Shown here in pieces: positions 6,174-35,368 of a DNA stretch of 35,368 bases; within the stretch, counting starts at the first letter, position 1, and each line of letters starts with the position of its first letter. The notes under the pieces were generated by a model. The model was given only the letters and a program-made list of their open reading frames with translations. It was not told where the DNA came from and searched no databases. Source of the DNA: a virus; the IMG/VR virus record IMGVR_UViG_3300028823_000309, positions 1 to 35,368 of that record, one strand, 5' to 3'. A program made the position numbers and the translations under genes.

Positions 6174-7274
6174 TCAAGGCACTAATTGCATCATGTTCAG
6201 CTTGCCAGTAAGTGCTGGTGGGATGCCCCCTAAATAATGCCAACCCATATCAACCTGCCCTGTATCTGCAATACTGTCAGTTCTTGTAGTTTTATCATCC
6301 ATACCAAGATTCACTGCCGTATCCGAGCCGGCATCAATGCAAGGCGAATCCGAGCCTTGACCGGCTGCGATATGCTCAAGATGGTAATCGGCAGCACCAG
6401 GATTGACCAGAAGCGGATTCGATGTTATGCAGTTATTGAAAATTGGAGTGCCATATACATCGCCTGCAAGGTTTTGATAGCAACAGTTATTCAATGTCAT
6501 AGTACCTGCTACTTCTGCGAGTTCATCACCACCAGCACCAGCATTATTATCCCAGATAATGCAATCGTACAATGTCACAGTAGAAGTGCCATCGCAGAAA
6601 ACACCCCCACCATAAGCACTACCACCACCACCAGCAGAATTATTATATATAGTACAGTTTCTAAGCGTTCCGTCTGCAGTTGAAAAATAAAAACCACCAC
6701 CATGAAGCAGTGGTGGTGAATCACCGTTATTGTAAACAAGACAATTATTAAAAAGTGGATTTGGATTACCACTTTCAACTCTGACACCTGCAGCTTTATA
6801 TCTTGCCCTGTTATGTTTGAGAATGCAATTTTCAATCAATGGGTCTGAGCCGGCATGAAGAATATTTATTCCACCACCCGAACCATACGGGTCATATTGA
6901 GCCTGACAAAGGTCAACAATTACGTTTTGGATTGTTGGGCTTGAGCCAGAATGTATCAGGATTCCACCAGACCATCCGGCTGTGTCATATGCCCTGTAAA
7001 CCGTCAGGTCTTTAATAATTGTAGTCAGCAATTCCCCACTGGTGCAAATAAAGCCATTGCTTCCAAGATTCTCACAATCAACAACAATGTCAGTAGGGTC
7101 ACCTGTCTCGCCTCTAATTGTGATTGCCTTGCCGCCCAAATCAACATTTCGGTTATTCACACCCTGAAATGGAGAGCCAGCTTGTTCTAAGATGACTTCA
7201 TCTGCTCCCGAAACAGCTGCAGCAACAGCAGCTTTAATATCGGCATAAACTGATGGGACTCGCCTTTCAGCCAT
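6174..7274 (-). CDS. Parallel beta-helix tailspike or adhesin candidate
   Basis: 366 residues with the repeating short strands and Asn/Gly turns of a right-handed parallel beta-helix (pectin lyase-like): IQNVIVDLCQA, IENCILKHNRA, LFNNCLVYNNGD, LRNCTIYNNSA, LYDCIIWDNNA. The end (DSPCIDAGSDTAVNLGMD, DMGWHYLGG) resembles the closing segment of choice-of-anchor-Q type surface proteins. The N terminus (YADIKAAVAAAVSGADEVI) is the usual entry into such helices. It probably binds or degrades a surface glycan of the host. It overlaps the upstream gene by one base (TAATG). Its place next to portal, far from the tail genes, is odd. No secretion signal is present, as expected for a virion protein. Confidence 0.75.
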   Translation of the reverse strand: MAERRVPSVYADIKAAVAAAVSGADEVILEQAGSPFQGVNNRNVDLGGKAITIRGETGDPTDIVVDCENLGSNGFICTSGELLTTIIKDLTVYRAYDTAGWSGGILIHSGSSPTIQNVIVDLCQAQYDPYGSGGGINILHAGSDPLIENCILKHNRARYKAAGVRVESGNPNPLFNNCLVYNNGDSPPLLHGGGFYFSTADGTLRNCTIYNNSAGGGGSAYGGGVFCDGTSTVTLYDCIIWDNNAGAGGDELAEVAGTMTLNNCCYQNLAGDVYGTPIFNNCITSNPLLVNPGAADYHLEHIAAGQGSDSPCIDAGSDTAVNLGMDDKTTRTDSIADTGQVDMGWHYLGGIPPALTGKLNMMQLVP

Positions 7275-7690: not shown

Positions 7691-9298
7691 TTAAGCTCCC
7701 ATTGGAATCATTCTCAGAAAAGCCGAAAGGTCAGCTCCAGCAATCACAGAGCCAATCTGGTCAATATTGAATCTGAGAATATCGTTCTTGTTAAGTTTGG
7801 TAAGTTGCATGGTTGTTGTTGAGCCAAATTTTGCAGCAGCCGCAATCTGGAAATCAGCAGGTGCAACCACTTCATCCCAGGTTGCTTCATTATCATCGCT
7901 TCTTTCAATCTGGATTGTCAAGGCTTGCCCTGTTGGTGCTGTCTTTACTCTTGCATAAGCTTCTTCAAGGTAACAATCCTGCAGCACAACCAGATAAGGG
8001 CATTGGTCATCAGCAACCGCAAGAACTCCGTCAACTATGAAAGTATATTGACCCCTGACCGGCTCCGAAGAAATGACAATCCACTGAGCCGAAACCGATT
8101 TTATCTTCACCATGTCATAAGGATTTGGTAACTCAAAATCGGCTTTGCCGTTTATTGTTTCTGCTCCGCTTGGGTCAACTATAACTGAATGAGCAGTTCC
8201 ACCAGGATAATGGGTAATTGTATATTCTTTACCAGGAACTGAAGCTGCTGCAGGCAAATCAATGTCCATGTTCGCGCCAGCAGGTATCGCCAGAATTATA
8301 TCATCAAGCGGATTGGCTGTTGTTGTTCCTGCAGCCTGAGTGATATTATGGCGCAAATCCAAAGGCTGAATATAAGTGATAGTTGCATCAATGTCGCAGT
8401 TGGCAAGGTTATACATATTAGAGCCAAAGAGAATTGAGCAACCAGCATCAAGGTCAAGGTCTTTTGCGCCACCAACAAAACCCGTCATGGCAAGAGTTAT
8501 ATTTGAAGCTGCACCAGTCACGTAGCAAGCTTTTTGATTTGTCGAAATACAATTTCCCAAAGCAATCTGATGACCTGAGCCACCATCAATTTTCAAAGCA
8601 TCACTTCCAGCATCAGCATGAGCATGACTGATTGTTGAGTGCATATAAATAACACTGGTTGAATTCAGAATATGTAAAGCAGGCACACCCGCCTGATTGA
8701 CGGCAACTATTTGACATTTATCTAATGTGTTTCCAACAACTGTATCAAGTTTGACAGCACCATCACAATCTGTTCGCCACATCCAAAGATTGTTAGCTGC
8801 TATTGCATGAATTGCAAAGTCAGTTGCGCCTTGCGCTCCAAAATAGCAGTGATGAATCTGTATATATCCGCTTGTACCTAAATCTTTATACGCCGCTTTG
8901 CCGGCATTGCCGGTCACAGTAACCTGCAACCCGTATATCCAAAGGCTTGAAACCCCATCAGGTCTTGTGATGACATCGCCTGAATCATAAGTGATATTGA
9001 CAGTGTTTCGCTTTGCCCAAAGGCTGACACCGGATTTCAGAGTTAACTGTTCATTATAAGAGCCTGGAGCAATTTTGATAAGTGCAGGGCTTGAAGCTGC
9101 GTCAATTGCAGCCTGGATGGTCTTAAAGGGATAACCCCTTGAGCCTTCTTCTGTATATAAATCAATACGATTGCCATCAACGTGCAAAATAGTGGTCACA
9201 GTGTCAATGGCATCGACTTCATCGGACATGGCCTTGAAAACTTTATAAGACTCATCAAGAGTGCCAATGCCGCCAATTCCTTCATCCAGCTCTGACAT
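7691..9298 (-). CDS. Tailspike candidate with pectin-lyase-like helix and C-terminal beta domains
   Basis: 535 residues. Residues ~37-110 hold the entry of a pectin-lyase-like beta-helix (GSRGYPFKTIQAAIDAA, IKIAPGSYNEQLTLKSG). Helix-like rungs run to ~310 (IQIHHCYFGAQG, IYMHSTISHAHA). The C-terminal part, ~315-535, looks like one or two beta-sandwich domains (ANPLDDIILAIPAGANMDID; LTIQIERSDDNEATWDEV), a common receptor-binding or trimerisation layout. It probably forms trimeric spikes that recognise host polysaccharide. Start at ATG 9298 behind GAAAGG. It is the second spike-like gene between terminase and portal. No catalytic residues could be assigned by eye. Confidence 0.75.
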   Translation of the reverse strand: MSELDEGIGGIGTLDESYKVFKAMSDEVDAIDTVTTILHVDGNRIDLYTEEGSRGYPFKTIQAAIDAASSPALIKIAPGSYNEQLTLKSGVSLWAKRNTVNITYDSGDVITRPDGVSSLWIYGLQVTVTGNAGKAAYKDLGTSGYIQIHHCYFGAQGATDFAIHAIAANNLWMWRTDCDGAVKLDTVVGNTLDKCQIVAVNQAGVPALHILNSTSVIYMHSTISHAHADAGSDALKIDGGSGHQIALGNCISTNQKACYVTGAASNITLAMTGFVGGAKDLDLDAGCSILFGSNMYNLANCDIDATITYIQPLDLRHNITQAAGTTTANPLDDIILAIPAGANMDIDLPAAASVPGKEYTITHYPGGTAHSVIVDPSGAETINGKADFELPNPYDMVKIKSVSAQWIVISSEPVRGQYTFIVDGVLAVADDQCPYLVVLQDCYLEEAYARVKTAPTGQALTIQIERSDDNEATWDEVVAPADFQIAAAAKFGSTTTMQLTKLNKNDILRFNIDQIGSVIAGADLSAFLRMIPMGA

Positions 9299-12513: not shown

Positions 12514-12729
12514 GATTAATTCTGAAAAACGATTGAAAACCCCCCTGTTCAACCTGATTAAATGTTAAATTAAGGGGTTTTCGAGCCTGTTAATTCTGAA
12601 AAACCCCTGTTTTGAATTATTATGTAAAAGCCGAATTTAATTTTAACTGCTTATGTATAAGGCACTTAAAAATAAATTGTATTTATTCAGCATAATTGAT
12701 TAATTCTGAAAAACCCCCTTTTGGGGGTT
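12514..12729. repeat. Iteron-like cluster with C-rich hairpins, candidate replication origin
   Basis: TTAATTCTGAAAAAC occurs three times in the same orientation, at 12,516, 12,590 and 12,700. The second and third copies continue into CCC runs. Between them, GAAAACCCC (12535-12543) and GGGGTTTTC (12574-12582) form a 9-bp inverted repeat. The third copy runs into AACCCCC-TTTT-GGGGGTT (12712-12729), a 7-bp stem with a 4-base loop. The rest is A+T-rich. Direct repeats plus A+T-rich DNA between divergent operons are typical of phage origins or multi-site operators. No initiator gene was recognised, so origin versus operator is open. Confidence 0.55.
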
Positions 12730-13285: not shown

Positions 13286-14155
13286 ATGAAAATAGCTTAT
13301 AGAGATGACTTGCATCTGAGCAAAAAGAATATTGCCAGGTTGCACGAAGTCAATGAAATCATTGAAGAATATGCTGAGCAGGGCTATGCTTTGACACTCA
13401 GGCAACTTTATTATCAGCTTGTCAGCCGCGATATGATTCCAAACAAAAAGGCTGAATATAACAAACTCGGCACACTGCTTACCAAAGGCAGAATGGCAGG
13501 GGTTGTGGATTGGGATGCAATTGAAGACAGAATCAGAGTGCCAAGAATACCTTATTCTGTTAGAAACATTGCAGATGCCCTGAATGACACAGTTGAGCAA
13601 TACAGACTCAACAGGCAGAAGGGGCAAGAAATCTATATTGAAGTTTGGTGTGAAAAAGATGCCCTGAGCAATGTGCTTTCCCGTGTCACAGAAGAATATC
13701 ATATCAGGCTGATGGTCAATCGTGGATATTCAAGCTGTACCGCTATGCATGATGCTTATAATAGATTCGAGATAAATGGACAAGGCGGCACAATTCTTTA
13801 TATTGGTGACCATGACCCTTCTGGTCTTGACATGCTCAGAGACATTAAAGACAGACTACTTGAGTTTGGTGTTACCGTTGATGTTGTGCCGGTTGCACTG
13901 ACCAGAGAGCAGATTGAAGAACATGACCCGCCTGAAAATCCTGCTAAATTTTCAGACCCCAGGGCTGATTGGTATATTGCAGAGCATGGTGATAGCTCTT
14001 GGGAAGTTGATGCATTGCCCCCGCAAGTCTTGCATGAGCTGCTGACAGATGCCATCGAGTCAAGAATTGACATGGATGCTTTTGAAGCAATGAAAGAGCA
14101 AGAAGAAGAAGACGTTGATAAGCTGAATGAAATGATTGAGCAGGTGCAGGAATAG
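13286..14155 (+). CDS. Spo11/Topoisomerase VI subunit A-like TOPRIM protein
   Basis: 289 residues, starting at ATG 13286 behind GAAAGGGGATGAGCC. The N-terminal part has TLRQLYYQLVSRD (residues 37-49), matching the R-x-x-Y-Y context of the catalytic tyrosine in Topo VI-A/Spo11; Y43 is the candidate nucleophile. The TOPRIM domain follows: VWCEKDAL (E123) and LYIGDHDPSG (D175, D177), the acidic metal-binding residues. The C-terminal ~30 residues are a Glu-rich helix. Family members cleave DNA through a tyrosyl link, normally with an ATPase B subunit (absent here) or meiotic partners. A role in genome resolution or recombination is plausible. Homologues in phages are usually unannotated. Fold assignment good, activity unproven. 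Confidence 0.82.
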   Translation: MKIAYRDDLHLSKKNIARLHEVNEIIEEYAEQGYALTLRQLYYQLVSRDMIPNKKAEYNKLGTLLTKGRMAGVVDWDAIEDRIRVPRIPYSVRNIADALNDTVEQYRLNRQKGQEIYIEVWCEKDALSNVLSRVTEEYHIRLMVNRGYSSCTAMHDAYNRFEINGQGGTILYIGDHDPSGLDMLRDIKDRLLEFGVTVDVVPVALTREQIEEHDPPENPAKFSDPRADWYIAEHGDSSWEVDALPPQVLHELLTDAIESRIDMDAFEAMKEQEEEDVDKLNEMIEQVQE

Positions 14156-15716: not shown

Positions 15717-15971
15717 ATGTCATCGAATTTACCGCCTGGATGCAGTCAAAATGACATTCCTGGCTGCAGACCAATGGACATTGCAGTTGACAAGGCGATT
15801 GAAGCAAAAGAATGTGGAGCTTGCAAGCATTATAATAGCGATGCAGAAGATGAGGCTCTTGCCTGTAATTTTTGCCATAAGCATTCACGTTTTGAAGTGA
15901 ATGAAGACCATGCAAGAATTGTAGAGAATATTCAGATTGAAGCCGAAGCAAAGAGAATTGAAGGATGGTAA
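15717..15971 (+). CDS. Small protein with two CxxC pairs, probable zinc binding
   Basis: 84 residues behind AGAAAGGAAAATCAG. The start, SSNLPPGCSQNDIPG, is a short motif recurrent in small phage proteins. Cysteines at 33/36 (ECGACKHY) and 50/53 (ACNFCHKH) form two CxxC pairs, consistent with one structural zinc ion. The C-terminal part is an acidic helix. Function unknown; its stop codon lies three bases before the start of the nuclease gene. Confidence 0.75.
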   Translation: MSSNLPPGCSQNDIPGCRPMDIAVDKAIEAKECGACKHYNSDAEDEALACNFCHKHSRFEVNEDHARIVENIQIEAEAKRIEGW

Positions 15972-15973
15972 AA

Positions 15974-16789
15974 ATGACTAACCAGCTCATTCACCGGCAA
16001 AGCGCAATTATTACTTACTGGATGTGTGCTGAGAAATATCGGCGCAGATATGCCAATGAAGAATTCCGGTCACCTTGTGCCAGAATGATTAGAGGCAGTG
16101 GTGTGCATGGCGGGGCAGCTCATAACTTCAGGCAGAAGAAAGACAGCCATCAGGATTTGAAGAAGCAAGATATTGTTGATAAGGCTGTTGCAGTCTTTGA
16201 TGAGATATATGAAAATGAAGGCTGCACTCTTGCACCTGAAGAAAAGAGCAGGGGCAAAGGCATTGTCATTGGTGAAGAACGTGACAGGGTTTGGCGGTTA
16301 TCAGAGCTGCAGGCTGATGACCTTGCCCCGACAATTCAGCCGGTTGCAGTTGAGCAAACAATAATTGCCGATTTTCCATCTTTGGGATTCAAGGTCAGAG
16401 GCACACTTGATTTGAAGGATTCTCGGAATGTGATTCAAGACCTGAAAAGCTCAACCAAGAAAAGACCGGCTGCAGATGTCCATAAAGATTTTCAGCTCAC
16501 AACTTATGCCGCTTTGGATTTCACCTTAACAAAGAAAATGCCTGCAGGTCTCAAGTTGAATGTGCTGGTTGACAAGAAAAGACCTGAGCTGCAGATTCTT
16601 GAGACAGCCAGAGACATGCAAGATTTTGAGACTTGGTTCAGAACTATAAAGGCAGTCGATGCAGCAATCAGAGCTGGCATTTTCCCGCCGACCAACAAAC
16701 ATAACTGGTGGTGTTCACCAAAATGGTGTGAATATTGGGCAGATTGTATCTATTGGTCTGAGTCTGAGAGAAGCAGAATCTCAGCATGA
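15974..16789 (+). CDS. PD-(D/E)XK exonuclease, Cas4/AddB-like with cluster cysteines
   Basis: 271 residues from ATG 15974, nine bases after AAGGA; an ATG at 15965 is in frame but too close to it. The core has GSGVHGGAAHNF (H45), GTLDLKDS (D146), VIQDLKSS (D156, K158) and DFQLTTYAA (Q174), the RecB-family active site. Four cysteines, C18 in YWMCAEKY and C247, C252, C258 in WWCSPKWCEYWADC, match the iron-sulphur cluster pattern of Cas4 and AddB. Such enzymes resect DNA ends. With the next two large genes it likely forms the phage recombination set. Activity and cluster are inferred from motifs. Confidence 0.85.
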   Translation: MTNQLIHRQSAIITYWMCAEKYRRRYANEEFRSPCARMIRGSGVHGGAAHNFRQKKDSHQDLKKQDIVDKAVAVFDEIYENEGCTLAPEEKSRGKGIVIGEERDRVWRLSELQADDLAPTIQPVAVEQTIIADFPSLGFKVRGTLDLKDSRNVIQDLKSSTKKRPAADVHKDFQLTTYAALDFTLTKKMPAGLKLNVLVDKKRPELQILETARDMQDFETWFRTIKAVDAAIRAGIFPPTNKHNWWCSPKWCEYWADCIYWSESERSRISA

Positions 16790-16802
16790 AAGGTGGTGTT
16801 GA

Positions 16803-17021
16803 ATGGTGCAAAAAGTCATAATAGGCTATACCGATTTCAGCACAATTGATTTAAGGGAATATCTGTCAAATGTTGCTGAGGTAATTCAAGAAGATGACAA
16901 CACATTTATCTGTAATGCAAAAACACTGAGAGAATGCAGACAAGACCGTGAACCTTGTGGCAAGTGCTGCAAGATAAAACTGACACTTACGGCAGAGGTT
17001 TTGGAAAGGTATTGTTATTAA
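16803..17021 (+). CDS. Small cysteine-rich protein of unknown function
   Basis: 72 residues between the nuclease and the annealase-like gene, starting at ATG 16803 after GAAAGGTGGTGTTGA. Six cysteines lie in the second half (C37, C45, C52, C55, C56, C71), with CRQDREPCGKCC at the centre, suggestive of a metal site. The N-terminal half is alpha/beta (VIIGYTDFSTIDLREYL). No family recognised. Confidence 0.68.
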   Translation: MVQKVIIGYTDFSTIDLREYLSNVAEVIQEDDNTFICNAKTLRECRQDREPCGKCCKIKLTLTAEVLERYCY

Positions 17022-17037
17022 AGAAAGGTGGTGGCTT

Positions 17038-18393
17038 ATGGCTAAGACATCTGCACCTGCAGGTGACCCCGAAGACAGGCGAGAAGTTGAAGCTGAGATT
17101 GTCAAAGAAGATGAGCTTGACATTCTCAGGGGCAATGGCATTGATTCAGCTCAAACACCAACAGAGCTGATAAAATCCGGCATGGCTCTTGTCAAGCTTG
17201 AGAATACAACTCAAATGACAATTGCCAGGGCAACCCCCAGGAATGAAGAAAGGGTCTTGAAGAAGTGCCTTGCAGAGCTTGCTCTGTATCCTGACATGGC
17301 TGCAGAAGCAGTCTATGTCAAGCCGGTTGGCAAAGACAGAAACGGGGTCATGCAATACGTTGAAGGCTTGTCAATCAGAGCTGCAGAGTCTCTGGCAACC
17401 AGATGGGGCAATTGCGCCTATGGAGCTGAGCCGATTGCCGATGACGGTGAAATCTTCACTCTTGGAGTGGTCTTTCTGGATTACGAAAGCAATGTCAGGG
17501 CTTCCAGGCTCTTGAGAATTTCCAGAAAGTTCAAGCGAAGAACAGGGCAGATTTCAACCTATTCTGAAGACAGGTTTAATTCAACCGTCATCCCCGCAGC
17601 TCAAAGCAAAGCACTCAGGGAAGTTATCTTGAGAGCGTTGCCTTCAGGTCTGACAAAGGCATATCTGAAGAAGGCTCAAGAGCTGATGAACAAGCAGTTC
17701 ACACCTGAACAGCAGAAACATTATCAAAAAAAGCTTGTTGAAAGCTTTGCCCAGGTGAAGGTTTCCGAAGAACAAATTGGAGAAATTCTTGGCAAGCCCT
17801 TAAACATGGGCATCACAGAGAATGAGTTGACCAAGCTCAGGGGCATCTACAATGCCTTAAAGGATGGCGAAACCACGATTGACCAGCTCATTGGCAGCAG
17901 CCAGGATTTCCAGCCACCAGCTCAGGCATCAGCAGAAGAAGCCTTGAAAGCAGCTCGGGCAGCCACAAAAGAAGAATCCGATAAATCCGATGACAATACT
18001 GAATCAGAAAAGAAAAGGGGCAGAGGCAGGCCAAGAAAAGAGCCTGAAAGCAAGCCTGCTGAAGAAAAACAGGCTACTGAGACACCAGATGGGCCAGAAG
18101 AAGCCGCTACAACCCCAAAACGGCAGGATTTGACGCCTCCTAAGACCACAAAAGCTGAAGAAGCTTCTGTTAAATCTGCTGAGCCTGCAGCCGAAGACCC
18201 TGAAAGGGCGGCTCTGATTCAGGCTATCAAAGACAGCTCTGCAAGCCTTGAAAACAAGATTGCCATAGTTTCTGAAGTTTGCGGTGCAAGCTTCTCTGAC
18301 CAAGCTCTTGCAGACATGGCTGAGAATCCTGAGCTGATTGAAGAAACTGCAAAGCTCAAGTCGGTTGTGAATATTCTCAAGATGATGGCTTAG
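17038..18393 (+). CDS. Conserved phage protein, possible single-strand annealing/recombination factor with AT-hook
   Basis: 451 residues behind GAAAGGTGG. The conserved domain (~residues 45-230) has ATPRNEERVLKKCLAELAL, QYVEGLSIRAAESLATRWGN and TVIPAAQSKALREVILRALP. I recognise this EG-S-R-AE pattern from a widespread phage family coded near exonucleases; a single-strand annealing role is plausible but unproven. Residues ~300-385 are a low-complexity Ala/Glu/Lys/Pro linker holding KKRGRGRPRKE, a clear AT-hook for A+T-rich minor grooves. A short helical C-terminal domain ends the protein. It sits between a nuclease and a Rad50-like ATPase, which supports a DNA recombination role. Confidence 0.7.
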   Translation: MAKTSAPAGDPEDRREVEAEIVKEDELDILRGNGIDSAQTPTELIKSGMALVKLENTTQMTIARATPRNEERVLKKCLAELALYPDMAAEAVYVKPVGKDRNGVMQYVEGLSIRAAESLATRWGNCAYGAEPIADDGEIFTLGVVFLDYESNVRASRLLRISRKFKRRTGQISTYSEDRFNSTVIPAAQSKALREVILRALPSGLTKAYLKKAQELMNKQFTPEQQKHYQKKLVESFAQVKVSEEQIGEILGKPLNMGITENELTKLRGIYNALKDGETTIDQLIGSSQDFQPPAQASAEEALKAARAATKEESDKSDDNTESEKKRGRGRPRKEPESKPAEEKQATETPDGPEEAATTPKRQDLTPPKTTKAEEASVKSAEPAAEDPERAALIQAIKDSSASLENKIAIVSEVCGASFSDQALADMAENPELIEETAKLKSVVNILKMMA

Positions 18394-18401
18394 AGGAAAA
18401 A

Positions 18402-19757
18402 ATGTCAAAAAAATGTCCAGTTTGTTCACAAGAAATGACTGAAACCAAAGGGGGGCATTCATGCTCTTGTGGCTATGGTGAATGGCAAAGACCTCACTAT
18501 ATTAGAAAGGGGGCTGATTTGGAAAGCGCCAAAATAGTCATGCTGAAAGCTCAAAACGTCAAAAGGCTTTCAGCAGTTGAGATTCATCCCGATAAGGATG
18601 AAAGCCTTGTTGTCATTGGCGGTGAGAATGCCCAGGGCAAGACCAGCGTGCTTGACTCAATAATGTATGCTCTGGCGGGGGGCAAAAGCATTCCTGAAGA
18701 TGTGGTCAAGCACGGTGAAAAGCAGGCGGTCATCGAGCTTGACCTGGGTGAACTGATTGTCAATCGTACGCTTGGCAAAGGGGCAAAGCTTGAAGTCAAG
18801 TATAAGGATGGCAGGAAAATGGGCAGCCCTCAAAAGCTGCTTGATGACTTGGCAGGCAAGCTGACTTTTGACCCCTTGCATTTTCAAAGGCTTTCAGAGA
18901 CCACTGCAGGCAGAAGACAGCAGGCAGAGATTCTCAGAGAATTGATTGGGCTTGACTTCACAGCCCATGAGAATCAAAGAAAGGCTTTATATGACCAGAG
19001 AACTGATGTCAATAGAGACCTGAAAAGAATTGAAGGTCATCTTGAGAGCCTTGAATATTTCCCTGATGCCCCCAAAGAGCCAGTTTCAGCTTCTGAGCTT
19101 GTCGAAGAACTGCAGAAAGCAACTGACCATAATAGAAAAAAACTCAGACATGCTGCAGAATTAGACTTGGTTGAAAAATCTATTGACGCAATCAAGAAAG
19201 AAATCAATAAACTGCAGAAAGAGCTTGAAGACAAGATTGCAACCAAGCTGACAATTCAGAAAATACTCAAAGAATTCAATCCGATTGATGACCAGGCAAT
19301 CAGGGAAAAGCTGCAGCAGGTTGAGCAGCTCAATGACCAGGTGCAGAAAAACAAAGCCAGAAATGAAAGTCTGAAGCAGCAATCAAAGCTCAGGCAGCAA
19401 TCTGAAAAGTTCACTGAGCAGATTGAAGACCTGGACAAAAGAAAGCAAGAAGCTCTCAACAATGCCGATATGCCGATTGAAGGCTTGAGCTTCACAGAAG
19501 AAGGGGTCATTTTTAATAAAGTGCCTTTTGAAAACTGCAGCTCAGCAGAGCAGCTCAAGTTGTCAGTGGCAATGGGCATCAAGATGAATCCCAAGCTCAA
19601 AATCATGCTTATCAGAGATGGCAGCCTGCTGGATGACAACAGCCTTGAAACTCTCAGAGAGATGGCAAGCAAGGCGGGTCAACAAGTCTGGCTTGAGAGA
19701 GTTGGCAAAGGTGAAGAATGCACAGTTGTCATAGAGGATGGCACTGTGCTGAAATAG
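18402..19757 (+). CDS. Rad50/SbcC-like ABC ATPase with N-terminal zinc-ribbon-like motif
   Basis: 451 residues. Cysteines 5, 8, 21 and 23 (CPVC, then CSCGYG) suggest a small zinc ribbon. The ATPase has Walker A GGENAQGKTS (73-82), and a Q-loop region near FDPLHFQRLS. A coiled coil covers ~210-350. An ABC-signature equivalent, NCSSAEQLKLSVAMG (~382-396), is followed by IMLIRDGSLLDD (~403-414) in place of the usual Walker B DE. This shape belongs to a phage branch of SMC-like ATPases. It probably opens or tethers DNA ends for the nuclease two genes upstream. The missing Glu after the Walker B Asp may mean slow ATP turnover. The start follows AGAGGAAAAA. Confidence 0.83.
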   Translation: MSKKCPVCSQEMTETKGGHSCSCGYGEWQRPHYIRKGADLESAKIVMLKAQNVKRLSAVEIHPDKDESLVVIGGENAQGKTSVLDSIMYALAGGKSIPEDVVKHGEKQAVIELDLGELIVNRTLGKGAKLEVKYKDGRKMGSPQKLLDDLAGKLTFDPLHFQRLSETTAGRRQQAEILRELIGLDFTAHENQRKALYDQRTDVNRDLKRIEGHLESLEYFPDAPKEPVSASELVEELQKATDHNRKKLRHAAELDLVEKSIDAIKKEINKLQKELEDKIATKLTIQKILKEFNPIDDQAIREKLQQVEQLNDQVQKNKARNESLKQQSKLRQQSEKFTEQIEDLDKRKQEALNNADMPIEGLSFTEEGVIFNKVPFENCSSAEQLKLSVAMGIKMNPKLKIMLIRDGSLLDDNSLETLREMASKAGQQVWLERVGKGEECTVVIEDGTVLK

Positions 19758-20207: not shown

Positions 20208-20540
20208 ATGAAGAAATTAGGCGGTCAGCAAGACCTTATCGAAGGCGATTTGCCTGTCTTGGAAGATGAAGAAGTTGCGGGAAAGCTTGAACAGATTTGG
20301 AAGCTCAGAGAATCCGCAAAGACACATGATAAGCTTGTGGGTGAAGTCAAAGAATTCATCCAGGGCTGGATTCTTGGCTTGCCGAAGAAAGACCAGGCTG
20401 TTGAGCAGTTCAAATGCGGCGATTTCATTTTGACTTTCAAAGTCGAAAACAAAGAAGTCAAGAAAGTCGAATACGAAACAAAAGGCGGCAAAAAGGTCAA
20501 GGTCAAGCTTACCCCCGAAGATGACAAAGAAAGTGACTAA
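20208..20540 (+). CDS. Small protein of unknown function upstream of resolvase
   Basis: 110 residues behind AGAAAGGATGGATGT. The N-terminal part is acidic and helical (DLPVLEDEEVAGKLEQIWKL); the C-terminal part is Lys-rich beta hairpin-like (KVENKEVKKVEYETKGGKKV). The stop TAA shares one base with the ATG of the resolvase gene, so the two are coupled and may act together. No named family was recognised. Confidence 0.72.
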   Translation: MKKLGGQQDLIEGDLPVLEDEEVAGKLEQIWKLRESAKTHDKLVGEVKEFIQGWILGLPKKDQAVEQFKCGDFILTFKVENKEVKKVEYETKGGKKVKVKLTPEDDKESD

Positions 20541-21217
20541 TGGACATCACCAAAGTCAATAGAAGAAGGCTCAGGTTGCTTCTCAGGCTTTTCATTCCTG
20601 GCAGGCCAAAGCCAAAGCAAAGGCTGAGATTTATGATTGCAGGCAGGTGGGGCAAGTACAAAGAAAGCAAACTGCTTGCCCCATTGAAAAAACTGCTTGA
20701 TTCTATCAAGTGGATGCTTGTTGCACCTGAAGCCCCTGGTGATGAAATGAAAGAGCTGATAAAAGAGAATCAAGAATGTCTTTCAGCAATTGACAATCTG
20801 CCTGAAGGCCATCCAAAAGTTGTTGGCTTCACGCCAAGTGACACAGCCGATTGGGAAAGCTTTGTTGCTAAGAAAGCCAGAAACAAATTCAAAGGCTCTG
20901 TTATTCTCAGAGAAGTGGCAATCTTTTTCCGGTTCATTTATGCCAAGAGAAACTTTCCTGATACCAGCAACATTGTCAAATCTGTTGAAGACGGTCTTCA
21001 GAAAGCAGGCATTTTCAAGAACGACAAACAGGTTGGCATCCATGTCACTTTCAGGGATTATGTCAAATCAACCAGGCTTGAAGGCACTTTGCTGCACGTC
21101 TTTGAGTGCTTTCAGGTTTCTGAAATAGAGGGGCAAGATGGCAAGGCCAAAAGCGATAAAACCAGAAGAACTGGACATGCTGACTCAGTTCAGAGTGCAA
21201 ATAGTCACATGGGATAA
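20540..21217 (+). CDS. RusA-like Holliday junction resolvase
   Basis: 225 residues. Family features: GRPKPKQRLRF near the N terminus, then RNFPDTSNIVKSVEDGL (from residue 137) and FKNDKQV (D162). E. coli RusA (about 120 residues) uses three Asp residues; here D141 and D162 are kept, but the second position of the D-x-D pair is Ser (PDTSN), a variant also found in other homologues. A helical insert of roughly 60-80 residues (~45-115) makes the protein long. RusA cuts four-way junctions, which helps recombination and clears branches before packaging. The last 26 codons overlap the next gene in another frame. The start is in a TAATG overlap. Confidence 0.85.
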   Translation: MDITKVNRRRLRLLLRLFIPGRPKPKQRLRFMIAGRWGKYKESKLLAPLKKLLDSIKWMLVAPEAPGDEMKELIKENQECLSAIDNLPEGHPKVVGFTPSDTADWESFVAKKARNKFKGSVILREVAIFFRFIYAKRNFPDTSNIVKSVEDGLQKAGIFKNDKQVGIHVTFRDYVKSTRLEGTLLHVFECFQVSEIEGQDGKAKSDKTRRTGHADSVQSANSHMG

Positions 21218-21932
21218 GTATCAGATTGATGCGATTGGCAATAAATTGAAAGGCAAAGACTGGCTGAAACTTGTTGCAGCAGGCACAACAGACACCATGC
21301 ACGAAGAAAAGCTTGCCACCAGAGGGCTTTTCTTTGACATGCTCAGGCATTCCAAAGGGGGCAGAAGGCCAGGATACCTGGTTGCAGGCAGCAATGAACC
21401 GCTGACCTTGAGCAGGCTTGCCAGGTATCTTTGGGTTTCGGTTGAAGAATTATTGCCACCACTGAAAAGGCTTATGATTACTGACAGAATCAAGCTGCTT
21501 GTTTCACCCGAGACAGATGAGCCTGAAGAAAAGATGCAAGTCGAATCTGAGCCGCCTTCTGAGAAAATCCTACAGCATAGAGCAATCAAAATCTTTTGGC
21601 TCTGTTGGGATGAGCTGCACATTAAAAGTTACAACAGAGAATATGATAAAGGTCAATGGGATGAGCTGAATCTGCTCAAAGTCTTGACTGTTGAGAAGCT
21701 TGAAAGGTTTATTGCTTATGCCTTTCATTTCCATCAATCAGATGAGCAGATTGGCATTCCAAAGCCTGAAGAAGAAAAGACTTCAAAACTGAAAGCACCA
21801 AGCATTGAAAATTTCCTGAAAAGAGTGCCGGATTACTCAAGCAGATTGCGGGGGCAGAAATGGGAAATGAGCCAGAAATTTGCAACAGAGAACCTGAAAA
21901 AGCATCAGCATCTGTTGAGCCATCAGAATTGA
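21138..21932 (+). CDS. Putative winged-helix protein, possible replication or transcription factor
   Basis: 264 residues from ATG 21138 behind GAGGGGCAAG, inside the 3' end of the resolvase gene. Residues ~93-120 (PLTLSRLARYLWVSVEELL, then PPLKRLMITDRIKLL) read like a helix-turn-helix plus wing, as in DnaD-type replication factors. A Glu/Ser-rich linker follows, then a helical domain with KIFWLCWDELHIKSYN. The C terminus overlaps the next gene by 73 bp. Phage replication initiators often have this build and lie near the recombination genes, but the match is weak. Confidence 0.65.
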   Translation: MARPKAIKPEELDMLTQFRVQIVTWDKYQIDAIGNKLKGKDWLKLVAAGTTDTMHEEKLATRGLFFDMLRHSKGGRRPGYLVAGSNEPLTLSRLARYLWVSVEELLPPLKRLMITDRIKLLVSPETDEPEEKMQVESEPPSEKILQHRAIKIFWLCWDELHIKSYNREYDKGQWDELNLLKVLTVEKLERFIAYAFHFHQSDEQIGIPKPEEEKTSKLKAPSIENFLKRVPDYSSRLRGQKWEMSQKFATENLKKHQHLLSHQN

Positions 21933-22360: not shown

Positions 22361-23185
22361 ATGAATCTTGGTGAGCTTGTATCTGAAAAGAGAAAGAGCA
22401 AGGGGCTTTGGTGGCAGAAAGCTCTGAATTTAGTGCCAGGTTGCACACCTGTCAGTGAAGCCTGCCTGAATTGCTGGTCTGCTGGTATGGCACATCGGCA
22501 AGGTTTCAGGCAAGGCATCAGTGATTATCAGTGGAAACTTTGGGGGGGCTTGACAACTTACGATGGCAAATGGAATGGTGAAATCAGATTGCTTGAAGAA
22601 AATCTTGAGCTGCCACTGAAGACCAAGAAACCAACTCTGTTTTCAGTCTGGAATGATTTGTTTCATCCGAAAGTGCCTGAGTCTTTTCATTATAAATTCT
22701 TTGAAATGGTTTCAGGGTGTAAGCATCATTTCTTCTTGGTCTTGACAAAGAGACCTGAAAATCTGCTCAAGTTTTATCAACAATGCGAAGATTATGACAG
22801 CTCTGAATTTCCTAATCTTGGTTTTGGTGTCACAGTTGAGCTGCCAAAATATCTTGACAGGATTTTGACTCTTTGTAAAGTTCCTGCAGCTCTAAGATTT
22901 GTCAGCCTTGAACCATTGCTTGATGAGCTGAGCATTTCCGGTCATGGATGGCGCAATGCAAGAAAAGAAGAAAGCATCCATTGGGTCATTCTTGGCTGCG
23001 AATCAGGCCGGAAGCGCAGACCGATGCAGCTTGAGTGGGGTCAAAAGATTCTCAATGAATGCAGAGACGCTGAAGTGCCTGCTTTCCTGAAACAGATTGA
23101 GCAAGGGGGCAAGTTAATTCATGCCCCTAAATCTCTGACAGGTGACAGCCTTCAAGTCTTTCCTGAAGTGGAGTGGAAACCATGA
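22361..23185 (+). CDS. DUF5131 (phage Gp37/Gp68) family protein with three-Cys motif
   Basis: 274 residues behind the exact leader GAAAGGATGAGCC. The N-terminal VPGCTPVSEACLNCWS gives C28, C35 and C38 (C-x6-C-x2-C), the three-Cys signature of the family, which resembles radical-SAM 4Fe-4S loops. Other conserved pieces are TLFSVWNDLFHP, HHFFLVLTKRPENL, GFGVTVE, LRFVSLEPLL and HWVILGCESG, laid out like the strands of a TIM-type barrel. In bacteria related proteins pair with TcmP partners; none is seen here. Its reaction is not known; it leads a cluster with ASCH, methyltransferase and deoxyribosyltransferase-fold genes. Confidence 0.85.
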   Translation: MNLGELVSEKRKSKGLWWQKALNLVPGCTPVSEACLNCWSAGMAHRQGFRQGISDYQWKLWGGLTTYDGKWNGEIRLLEENLELPLKTKKPTLFSVWNDLFHPKVPESFHYKFFEMVSGCKHHFFLVLTKRPENLLKFYQQCEDYDSSEFPNLGFGVTVELPKYLDRILTLCKVPAALRFVSLEPLLDELSISGHGWRNARKEESIHWVILGCESGRKRRPMQLEWGQKILNECRDAEVPAFLKQIEQGGKLIHAPKSLTGDSLQVFPEVEWKP

Positions 23186-23392: not shown

Positions 23393-23749
23393 ATGAAAAT
23401 AATAAGTTTTGCATGGACAACTGAAGCATTATTGAAAGGTAAGAAAACTCAGACCAGAAGATTTTGGGATGACAAATATGCCAGGAAATTCAAGGCAGGT
23501 GACCTGGTGCAAGCTTATGACAAGAATCCAAGAAGCGGGGGCAAGCCGGTTGCAATCATCAGAATCACAAGAGATGCCTGGAAACAAAAGCTCAATGATA
23601 TGAACACCAGACAATACCTTGCTGAAGGCGGCAAGCTTTATTGGTCTGGCACTTGGGAATTCATCCAAATGATGCTTTCACAAGGCAAGGGTGACAGGGT
23701 TTGGGTTATTGAATTTGAAGTTGTTGCATTTCATGGTGACAAGAAATGA
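23393..23749 (+). CDS. ASCH-domain protein
   Basis: 118 residues. ISFAWTTEALLKGKKTQTRR and FKAGDLVQAYDKNPRSGGK carry the ASCH pattern: a beta barrel with a Thr/Arg-rich nucleic-acid groove, the TRR motif after a helix, and the KAGD turn. The family is linked to RNA or modified-nucleotide binding; some members hydrolyse N4-acetylcytidine. The gene lies between the DUF5131 pair and the DNA methyltransferase and overlaps the latter by four bases (ATGA), so a role in nucleic-acid modification, reading or clearing modified bases, is plausible. Substrate unknown. Confidence 0.8.
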   Translation: MKIISFAWTTEALLKGKKTQTRRFWDDKYARKFKAGDLVQAYDKNPRSGGKPVAIIRITRDAWKQKLNDMNTRQYLAEGGKLYWSGTWEFIQMMLSQGKGDRVWVIEFEVVAFHGDKK

Positions 23750-34764: not shown

Positions 34765-35368
34765 CCGATGCTCACCCTTCGCCATCTGATAAGCTGCTCT
34801 GAATACCTTTCAACAACAAATTCATCAACTGAGACGCTATTGTCAAACCTGGTATATGAATAATCACCAAGCTTTTCAGATTTCATGCCTTTGTCTGAAC
34901 CGGCTTCCCTGACCGCATCTGCCACCATTGCCGTGACAAGCTCTGTCAAATCTGCTGGCAACGCTGCCTGATTTGCACCAAGACCTGCATTCCATTCTGC
35001 AAATATCCTGGTCTCAGGGAACTTGCCAGAAGTCAGCTTGACCCTGCCTGTCTTTGCTGTCAAATGATGCCCTGAAATAAGGCTGTCATAATCTGGTATG
35101 TAAAATGAAGCATATTCAGAGCTGAGAGCTGGCTGACCAGGCTCATCAACCAGGTCTGCACTCAGATGGTTTTCATAGCCTGAAATAACTTCAACAGACC
35201 AACCTGAGACAAGCTCAAGAGCTGTTTTTATTGCAGCAAGAGTTGTCTCAGAAGACAAGTCAATATCTGTTTCAACTTCGGCATCCCCCCATGTTCTTGC
35301 AAAGAGATGCCCATCGATGACTTCAACTGTGGCAGATTTTGCACCGGCAAGACTTGTTGATATTCTCA
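34761..35368 (-). CDS. Head-tail connector (gp6-like), C-terminal part, split by window edge
   Basis: This continues the frame that starts at 266. The part after the junction begins within VMRISTSLAG; an internal TTG at 35258 is not the real start. Residues ~90-160 hold an inserted beta module (ATVEVIDGHLFARTWGDAEV, SGWSVEVISGYENHLSADLV). The end, LTELVTAMVADAVREAGSDK, then MKSEKLGDYSYTRFD and YSEQLIRWRRVSIG, is a typical connector end with the last helix facing the portal. It overlaps the head-closure gene by four bases. The last 22 bases here duplicate positions 1-22 and should be counted once. Confidence 0.82.
   Translation of the reverse strand, partial: RISTSLAGAKSATVEVIDGHLFARTWGDAEVETDIDLSSETTLAAIKTALELVSGWSVEVISGYENHLSADLVDEPGQPALSSEYASFYIPDYDSLISGHHLTAKTGRVKLTSGKFPETRIFAEWNAGLGANQAALPADLTELVTAMVADAVREAGSDKGMKSEKLGDYSYTRFDNSVSVDEFVVERYSEQLIRWRRVSIG
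35347..35368. repeat. Right copy of 22-bp terminal direct repeat
   Basis: Exact copy of positions 1-22. Merging the two copies closes the map at 35,346 bp and keeps the connector frame open, which a chance match would not do. Confidence 0.9.

Follow-up and report, generated by a model that had tools for sequence, protein, structure and literature searches.

The window analysed in this study is the whole of the IMG/VR virus record IMGVR_UViG_3300028823_000309 (35,368 nucleotides). A 22-bp direct repeat, unique to the two ends, is present at positions 1-22 and 35347-35368, and a minus-strand ORF of 286 codons in the head-tail region is intact across the joined ends. This suggests that the genome is circular and essentially complete at about 35.3 kb. 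The minus-strand arm carries the terminase gene and other structural genes of capsid and tail type, and the plus-strand arm, at about 13.3-25.7 kb, is an early module whose first annotated gene encodes the protein under study, Mini-A. In a megablast search of 50,697 phage records, the early region had no close relative. The record gave neither a tRNA nor an Rfam match at gathering thresholds. The features considered here are as follows.

13286-14155, plus strand: Mini-A (Topo VI-A/Spo11-like) gene, 289 aa (PHROG 6247, 71 phage homologues, AlphaFold2, Foldseek)
13319-13537, plus strand: winged-helix (5Y-CAP) domain, aa 12-84, with R39 and the predicted catalytic Y43 (VIA match to 1d3y_A; residue conservation)
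13628-14068, plus strand: TOPRIM domain, aa 115-261, with E123, D175, D177 and E240 (VIA Z-scores; residue conservation)
15965-16789, plus strand: PD-(D/E)XK exonuclease, RecB/Cas4-like (PF12705, E=4.2e-16; phrog_69 exonuclease)
17038-18393, plus strand: phrog_3657 protein, a recurrent neighbour of the Rad50-like ATPase (E=6.6e-41)
18402-19757, plus strand: Rad50/SbcC/RecF-like AAA_23 ATPase of phrog_1499 (PF13476, E=2.5e-13; phrog_1499, E=9.7e-92)
20540-21217, plus strand: RusA-like Holliday junction resolvase (PF05866, E=2.9e-8; phrog_140)

Some further observations concern the rest of the genome. Three exact copies of TTAATTCTGAAAAAC (12516-12530, 12590-12604 and 12700-12714, plus strand), two of them followed by CCCC, are confined to the gap of about 1 kb between the divergent arms, just 5' of Mini-A, and they look like a set of operators or origin iterons. 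In the plus-strand arm, 21138-21932 encodes a 264-aa protein that has no Pfam or PHROG match and whose sequence resembles a winged-helix replication initiator, and 22361-23185 encodes a DUF5131 protein matched by the PADLOC candidate families PDC-M41B and PDC-M30B at about 1e-43, followed by a DNA methyltransferase gene at 23746. No gene for a DNA polymerase or a helicase was noticed among the annotations of the genome. A defence role for Mini-A itself was considered and set aside, as the protein has no PADLOC match. On the minus strand, 6174-7274 and 7691-9298 encode two repeat-rich proteins that appear beta-helix-like by eye and lie between the terminase gene and a portal-like gene, an unusual site for adhesin-like proteins.

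The Mini-A ORF begins with ATG directly downstream of a GGGG tract that resembles a Shine-Dalgarno sequence. Pfam and NCBIfam searches of the protein returned nothing useful, and the Pfam model TP6A_N matched neither Mini-A nor anything else in the record, so the motif reading made in the first-pass annotation went beyond what a routine Pfam search would have given. PHROG 6247, annotated 'DNA topoisomerase', matched with an E value of 3.9e-86 and covered residues 1-288, and tblastn with Mini-A found 71 phage records, nearly all of them near full length, at about 25-52% identity. Together these results indicate that the match is not due to chance. The same PHROG profile matches Pseudomonas phage NP1 (1.1e-139) and the archaeal virus HCIV-1 (1.0e-71), and the NP1 protein is 40.9% identical to the window protein over 95% of its length (tblastn, E 3e-55). 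The product of 13286-14155 is a genuine member of the Mini-A family, which was reportedly described and named by Takahashi et al. in 2020 (NAR Genom Bioinform 2:lqz021), and this kind of protein is not new. The NP1 protein is the reference Mini-A, and the family consists of truncated Top6A homologues of archaeoviruses and bacteriophages (PMC7614492). One review gives the function of Mini-A as unknown (PMC8084294), two others also treat the family (PMC8185306, PMC11302465), and a literature search found no report of Mini-A activity.

Hundreds of loci resemble this one. At least 568 Mini-A stretches were found in IMG/VR, and 161 were found on genome contigs of bacteria and archaea. One IMG/VR record, IMGVR_UViG_3300027888_000020, carries the first 192 Mini-A residues at 100% identity along with an identical terminase and is a fragment of the same virus. 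Several Nitrosopumilus-type archaeal genomes (L096, L101, L103, L106 and L108, with L168-L172) have a Mini-A locus in addition to a normal Top6A gene elsewhere, and the Mini-A locus in those genomes is probably a provirus or viral contig.

The first-pass annotation read the protein as Spo11/Topo VI-A-like, which calls for a tyrosine-bearing winged helix and a TOPRIM domain, and structure prediction bore this out. An AlphaFold2 model built with 72 relatives (pLDDT 94.7, pTM 0.88) contains both domains, including the winged helix on which the proposal had been made to depend. When the model was compared with the PDB using Foldseek, ranks 1-7 were all Topo VI-A (1d3y_A, E=2.7e-4) and Spo11 (8uru) was at rank 11. 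The whole-chain alignment to Topo VI-A covers both Mini-A domains, and its high overall rmsd would fit a differing angle between the domains in the Mini-A model. When the TOPRIM half (residues 115-261) was compared by VIA-align, the match to Topo VI-A 1d3y_B had a Z-score of 12.3 (2.9 A over 141 residues), followed by Topo VI-A 9o0g_A (Z 11.8), the nucleases JetD and MksG (PDB 7til and 8b7f; Z 11.0 and 11.4), and Spo11 (8uru_A, Z 9.6; 8urq, Z 9.3). The N-terminal half modelled alone (pLDDT 84.1) matched residues 72-143 of 1d3y_A best, above other winged-helix proteins (Z 7.0, 2.5 A, 69 residues). However, a Z-score below 8 may reflect a common arrangement, and Foldseek with this half alone was insignificant (E 2.1), so this match is taken as supporting evidence. 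The numbering offset between 1d3y_A and Mini-A is near-constant at 60, which places Y43 on residue 103 of 1d3y_A, the catalytic tyrosine of M. jannaschii Top6A.

Comparison of a Mini-A profile with five archaeal Top6A sequences by hhalign was weak (E 0.064), and a PDB profile search reached 1d3y at E 0.052 with 9 sequences and nothing with 72. The Pfam model JetD_C matched 3 of 72 relatives weakly (best E 0.052), the window protein was matched by no Pfam model, and a search of BFVD gave one match below 0.001, a 152-aa protein (E 6.8e-4). Because profile comparison is weak and Pfam does not detect the protein, the homology between Mini-A and Topo VI-A rests on the fold and on the register of the motifs.

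In the Mini-A sequence, two tyrosines are found at residues 42-43, a glutamate at 123 and aspartates at 175 and 177, as the first-pass annotation had read them. The active site of M. mazei Top6A consists of Y106, E202, D254, D256 and E342, and R102 and E342 form an electrostatic clasp; cleavage increases when this clasp is lost (PMC13040014). A Methanosarcina Top6A sequence retrieved for this study carries R102, Y106, E202, D254, D256 and E342, each at the position published for M. mazei. When Mini-A and archaeal Top6A sequences were aligned jointly, the TLRxxYY, (I)EK/T and DGD/DHD motifs came into register unaided, and Mini-A R39, Y43, E123, D175 and D177 fell on M. mazei R102, Y106, E202, D254 and D256. 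This agrees with the earlier assignment of Y43, E123, D175 and D177 to the tyrosine and TOPRIM motifs. Mini-A E240 lies in a conserved WExDAL motif past the last TOPRIM strand, and Top6A E342 lies in KAEQQAF. By motif and fold order E240 is the likely match of E342, though plain sequence alignment is a few residues off.

These residues are strongly conserved. R39, Y43, E123, D175 and D177 do not vary among the relatives compared (165 of 165), and E240 is likewise invariant in 164 of 164. One caveat is that several of the 165 loci were found by patterns that included the Y43 and E123 motifs, which inflates the apparent conservation of those two residues in this set. For this reason the check was repeated on a set of 17 named viruses that had been retrieved with tblastn, without use of the motifs. 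R39, Y43, E123, D175 and E240 were kept in all 17, and D177 in 16. The sole exception was HCIV-1 (L176, 8920-9951), which has N in place of D177 (GDFNPSG), and from this substitution the metal site of the HCIV-1 Mini-A may be altered. The earlier reading had been staked on Y43 being kept among homologues, and no homologue in either set has lost it. Y42 is variable, so Y43 and not Y42 is the catalytic candidate.

Conservation of this kind does not by itself demonstrate activity. Members of the Topoisomerase VIII group show variable inactivation (PMC7614492), so intact residues in Mini-A are no proof that the enzyme is active. Those inactivated relatives lend something to the idea that Mini-A is a DNA-binding relic, or a nuclease without topoisomerase-type transesterification, as does the finding that the TOPRIM nucleases JetD and MksG are nearly as close to Mini-A over the TOPRIM half as Topo VI-A is. 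However, the tyrosine domain has been kept, and invariance of R39, Y43, E123, D175 and E240 in distant viruses chosen without motif bias is unexpected of relics. A relic or simple nuclease is therefore considered unlikely.

A Topo VI holoenzyme is an A2B2 assembly with a GHKL ATPase, and no B-type gene is present in this record. Neither Topo-VIb_trans (PF09239) nor HATPase_c (PF02518) matched anywhere in it, in keeping with the first-pass annotation, which had noted that no GHKL subunit is encoded. The negative result is meaningful, as the contig appears to be a complete circular genome. HATPase_c was likewise absent from 50 Mini-A viral records, some of which are fragments, whereas the control genomes were all positive. 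Since GHKL proteins are encoded in every bacterial and archaeal control genome, while the phage and its 50 relatives encode no B subunit, it could be argued that Mini-A borrows a host GHKL ATPase (GyrB, ParE, MutL or Topo VI-B) to form a hybrid topoisomerase. However, the hosts span bacteria and archaea, including some archaea with their own Topo VI, and a single conserved host partner is hard to imagine across that range. Mini-A has also been described as a truncated homologue of Top6A (PMC7614492). A borrowed host subunit seems quite improbable, slightly more so than a relic.

The first-pass annotation suggested that a Rad50-like ATPase encoded downstream might serve Mini-A instead, in parallel with the link between Spo11, Mre11 and Rad50 in meiosis. 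The product of 18402-19757 is a real AAA_23/SbcC-like ATPase, and it shares an operon with Mini-A in the window. The closest relative genome among the matches listed (L012, with a Mini-A 70% identical) also carries both genes, so a local link between the two is possible, yet it is not a feature of the family. A homologue of the ATPase was found within 10 kb of Mini-A at only 1 of 86 viral loci and 2 of 80 genome loci (3 of 166 in total), and any AAA_23 protein at all was found in 10 of 50 whole Mini-A viral records. When the comparison was made from the other side, the ATPase was found in 142 phages, and the best 60 of those 142 share a single record (TCUEAP2) with the Mini-A list, with ATPase coverage of 24%. 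Among the matches listed, ATPase-bearing and Mini-A-bearing phages are thus almost disjoint.

The recurrent neighbours of the ATPase are instead the exonuclease and the phrog_3657 protein. In phages phiT5282EW and Dolphis, which have no Mini-A, the ATPase adjoins both, and the set is the same as that at 15965-19757 (plus strand) in the window. The set thus recurs in unrelated phages, and it may be a phage cassette for end processing or annealing, with the phrog_3657 protein as one component. The other half of the proposed parallel fared no better. A calcineurin-type nuclease of the Mre11/SbcD kind (PF00149) is absent from the genome even at E<=1, and the nuclease that is encoded belongs to the PD-(D/E)XK group. 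The neighbourhood, whole-record and ATPase-side comparisons all fail to support a Rad50 partnership. That the ATPase stands in for the missing GHKL subunit is consequently very unlikely, the least probable of the readings considered here, and the meiotic parallel was not upheld.

Genes for replication and repair surround Mini-A in a range of phages. In the window, Mini-A is upstream of the exonuclease, RusA and methyltransferase genes. In NP1 it lies between genes for a DNA ligase and Sak4, with a primase, a Cas4-type exonuclease and a helicase close by, the exonuclease and helicase being downstream. Its neighbours include a DNA polymerase exonuclease subunit in BKO1-3, a DNA polymerase in RDJL Phi 2, and ThyX in SPN19 and vB_BsubS-Delta. 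No single neighbour is constant. When the flanking ORFs were clustered, the only clusters to emerge were of helicase and integrase type, and the best neighbour cluster was present at 21 of 167 loci. Pfam tallies near and far from Mini-A placed helicases, exonuclease and primase near it with no dominant family. These co-occurrence counts are raw. Contigs retrieved with a random 15-mer were mostly too short to serve as controls, and a terminase query gave only the fragment of the same virus, so no enrichment or depletion is claimed.

This mixed neighbourhood bears on a further possibility, in which Mini-A makes programmed double-strand breaks and so initiates recombination-dependent phage replication or the formation of concatemers. 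In the way that Spo11 supplies breaks for meiotic recombination, Mini-A would supply them to the exonuclease, the annealing protein and RusA of the phage. The early operon that holds Mini-A here also encodes an exonuclease and a RusA-like resolvase, the NP1 gene is flanked and followed by the ligase, Sak4, exonuclease and helicase genes described above, and SPO11 alone makes breaks in vitro (PMC11922746). However, no recombination gene is constant. PDDEXK_1 was found in 12 of 50 Mini-A viral records and the Sak4-type AAA_24 in 6 of 50, and on these counts a fixed recombination cassette was rejected. A dedicated break maker is possible but doubtful. A slightly more doubtful version, which is offered tentatively, is that Mini-A is the equivalent of Spo11 in phages but needs no partner, making programmed, protein-capped double-strand breaks in phage DNA that lead to recombination-dependent replication or packaging, with an R39-E240 clasp and dimerisation as its sole safety controls.

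The lack of a constant neighbour and the low counts of exonuclease and Sak4-type genes favour a partner-independent enzyme over a dedicated recombination starter. The explanation that best fits the data, and the one that is probably correct, is that Mini-A is a partner-independent relative of Topo VI-A and Spo11 that acts as a homodimer and, in early replication, breaks phage DNA with formation of 5'-phosphotyrosyl links. The family identity, the fold, the residue set, the absence of a B subunit and the lack of a consistent neighbour were all obtained by computation. The scheme that follows, which covers the dimer, the chemistry of cleavage, the clasp and the biological role, is our inference. 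Two copies of Mini-A would pair through their TOPRIM domains, forming a homodimer that surrounds bent phage DNA. In each winged-helix domain, the hydroxyl of Y43 would attack one strand, at a hybrid active site where the opposite protomer would supply the metal ligands E123, D175 and D177. The outcome would be staggered breaks with Mini-A covalently attached to the 5' ends, and these breaks would be resealable. R39 and E240 would act as a safety clasp that restrains the tyrosine, as R102 and E342 do in M. mazei Top6A. Mini-A would be made early and probably acts on replicating phage DNA, where it could provide ATP-free relaxation or make occasional breaks. There is precedent for such a reaction, as mouse SPO11 alone cleaves DNA. 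It must dimerise to do so, its active sites are hybrids, and it is able to reseal nicks (PMC11922746; see also PMC11922745).

The data presented in this study indicate that the Mini-A family has kept a complete Topo VI-A/Spo11 active site, while a GHKL partner was found in none of the 50 viral records tested. The family is also common, occurring on hundreds of viral contigs and in prophage-like loci of bacteria and archaea. Since SPO11 alone was found in 2025 to cut as a dimer, a small, partner-free viral homologue would offer a practical model for the reaction. Work on Mini-A would also be a test of whether phages widely rely on topoisomerase-type cleavage that needs no ATPase.

Comparison with known systems places the window protein closest to the NP1-type Mini-A proteins, with which it shares PHROG 6247 and a short, virus-encoded Topo VI-A homologue that has no B subunit. 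It differs from them in sequence (52% identity or less to the phage records listed), and no mechanistic difference was seen. Topo VI-A (Top6A; PDB 1d3y, 2zbk, 9o8p and 9o0g) has in common with Mini-A the winged helix and TOPRIM domains, a tyrosine four residues after an arginine and an E/D/D metal site, and its clasp residue E342 has a candidate equivalent in Mini-A. However, Mini-A is shorter (289 aa compared to about 360-370), lacks a B subunit and is missed by Pfam TP6A_N. Spo11 (8uru, 8urq) shares the fold and active-site plan, and its dimers cut without partners. Mini-A differs in being viral, in its far lower sequence similarity and in having no meiotic partners, and break-making by Mini-A is a proposal. 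Topoisomerase VIII is, like Mini-A, a type IIB relative carried on mobile elements, but it has a B-type ATPase part where Mini-A has none. JetD and MksG of the Wadjet/MksBEFG systems have a TOPRIM half nearly as similar to that of Mini-A as Topo VI-A's is, but those nucleases work with an SMC motor in plasmid defence, whereas Mini-A is not matched by PADLOC.
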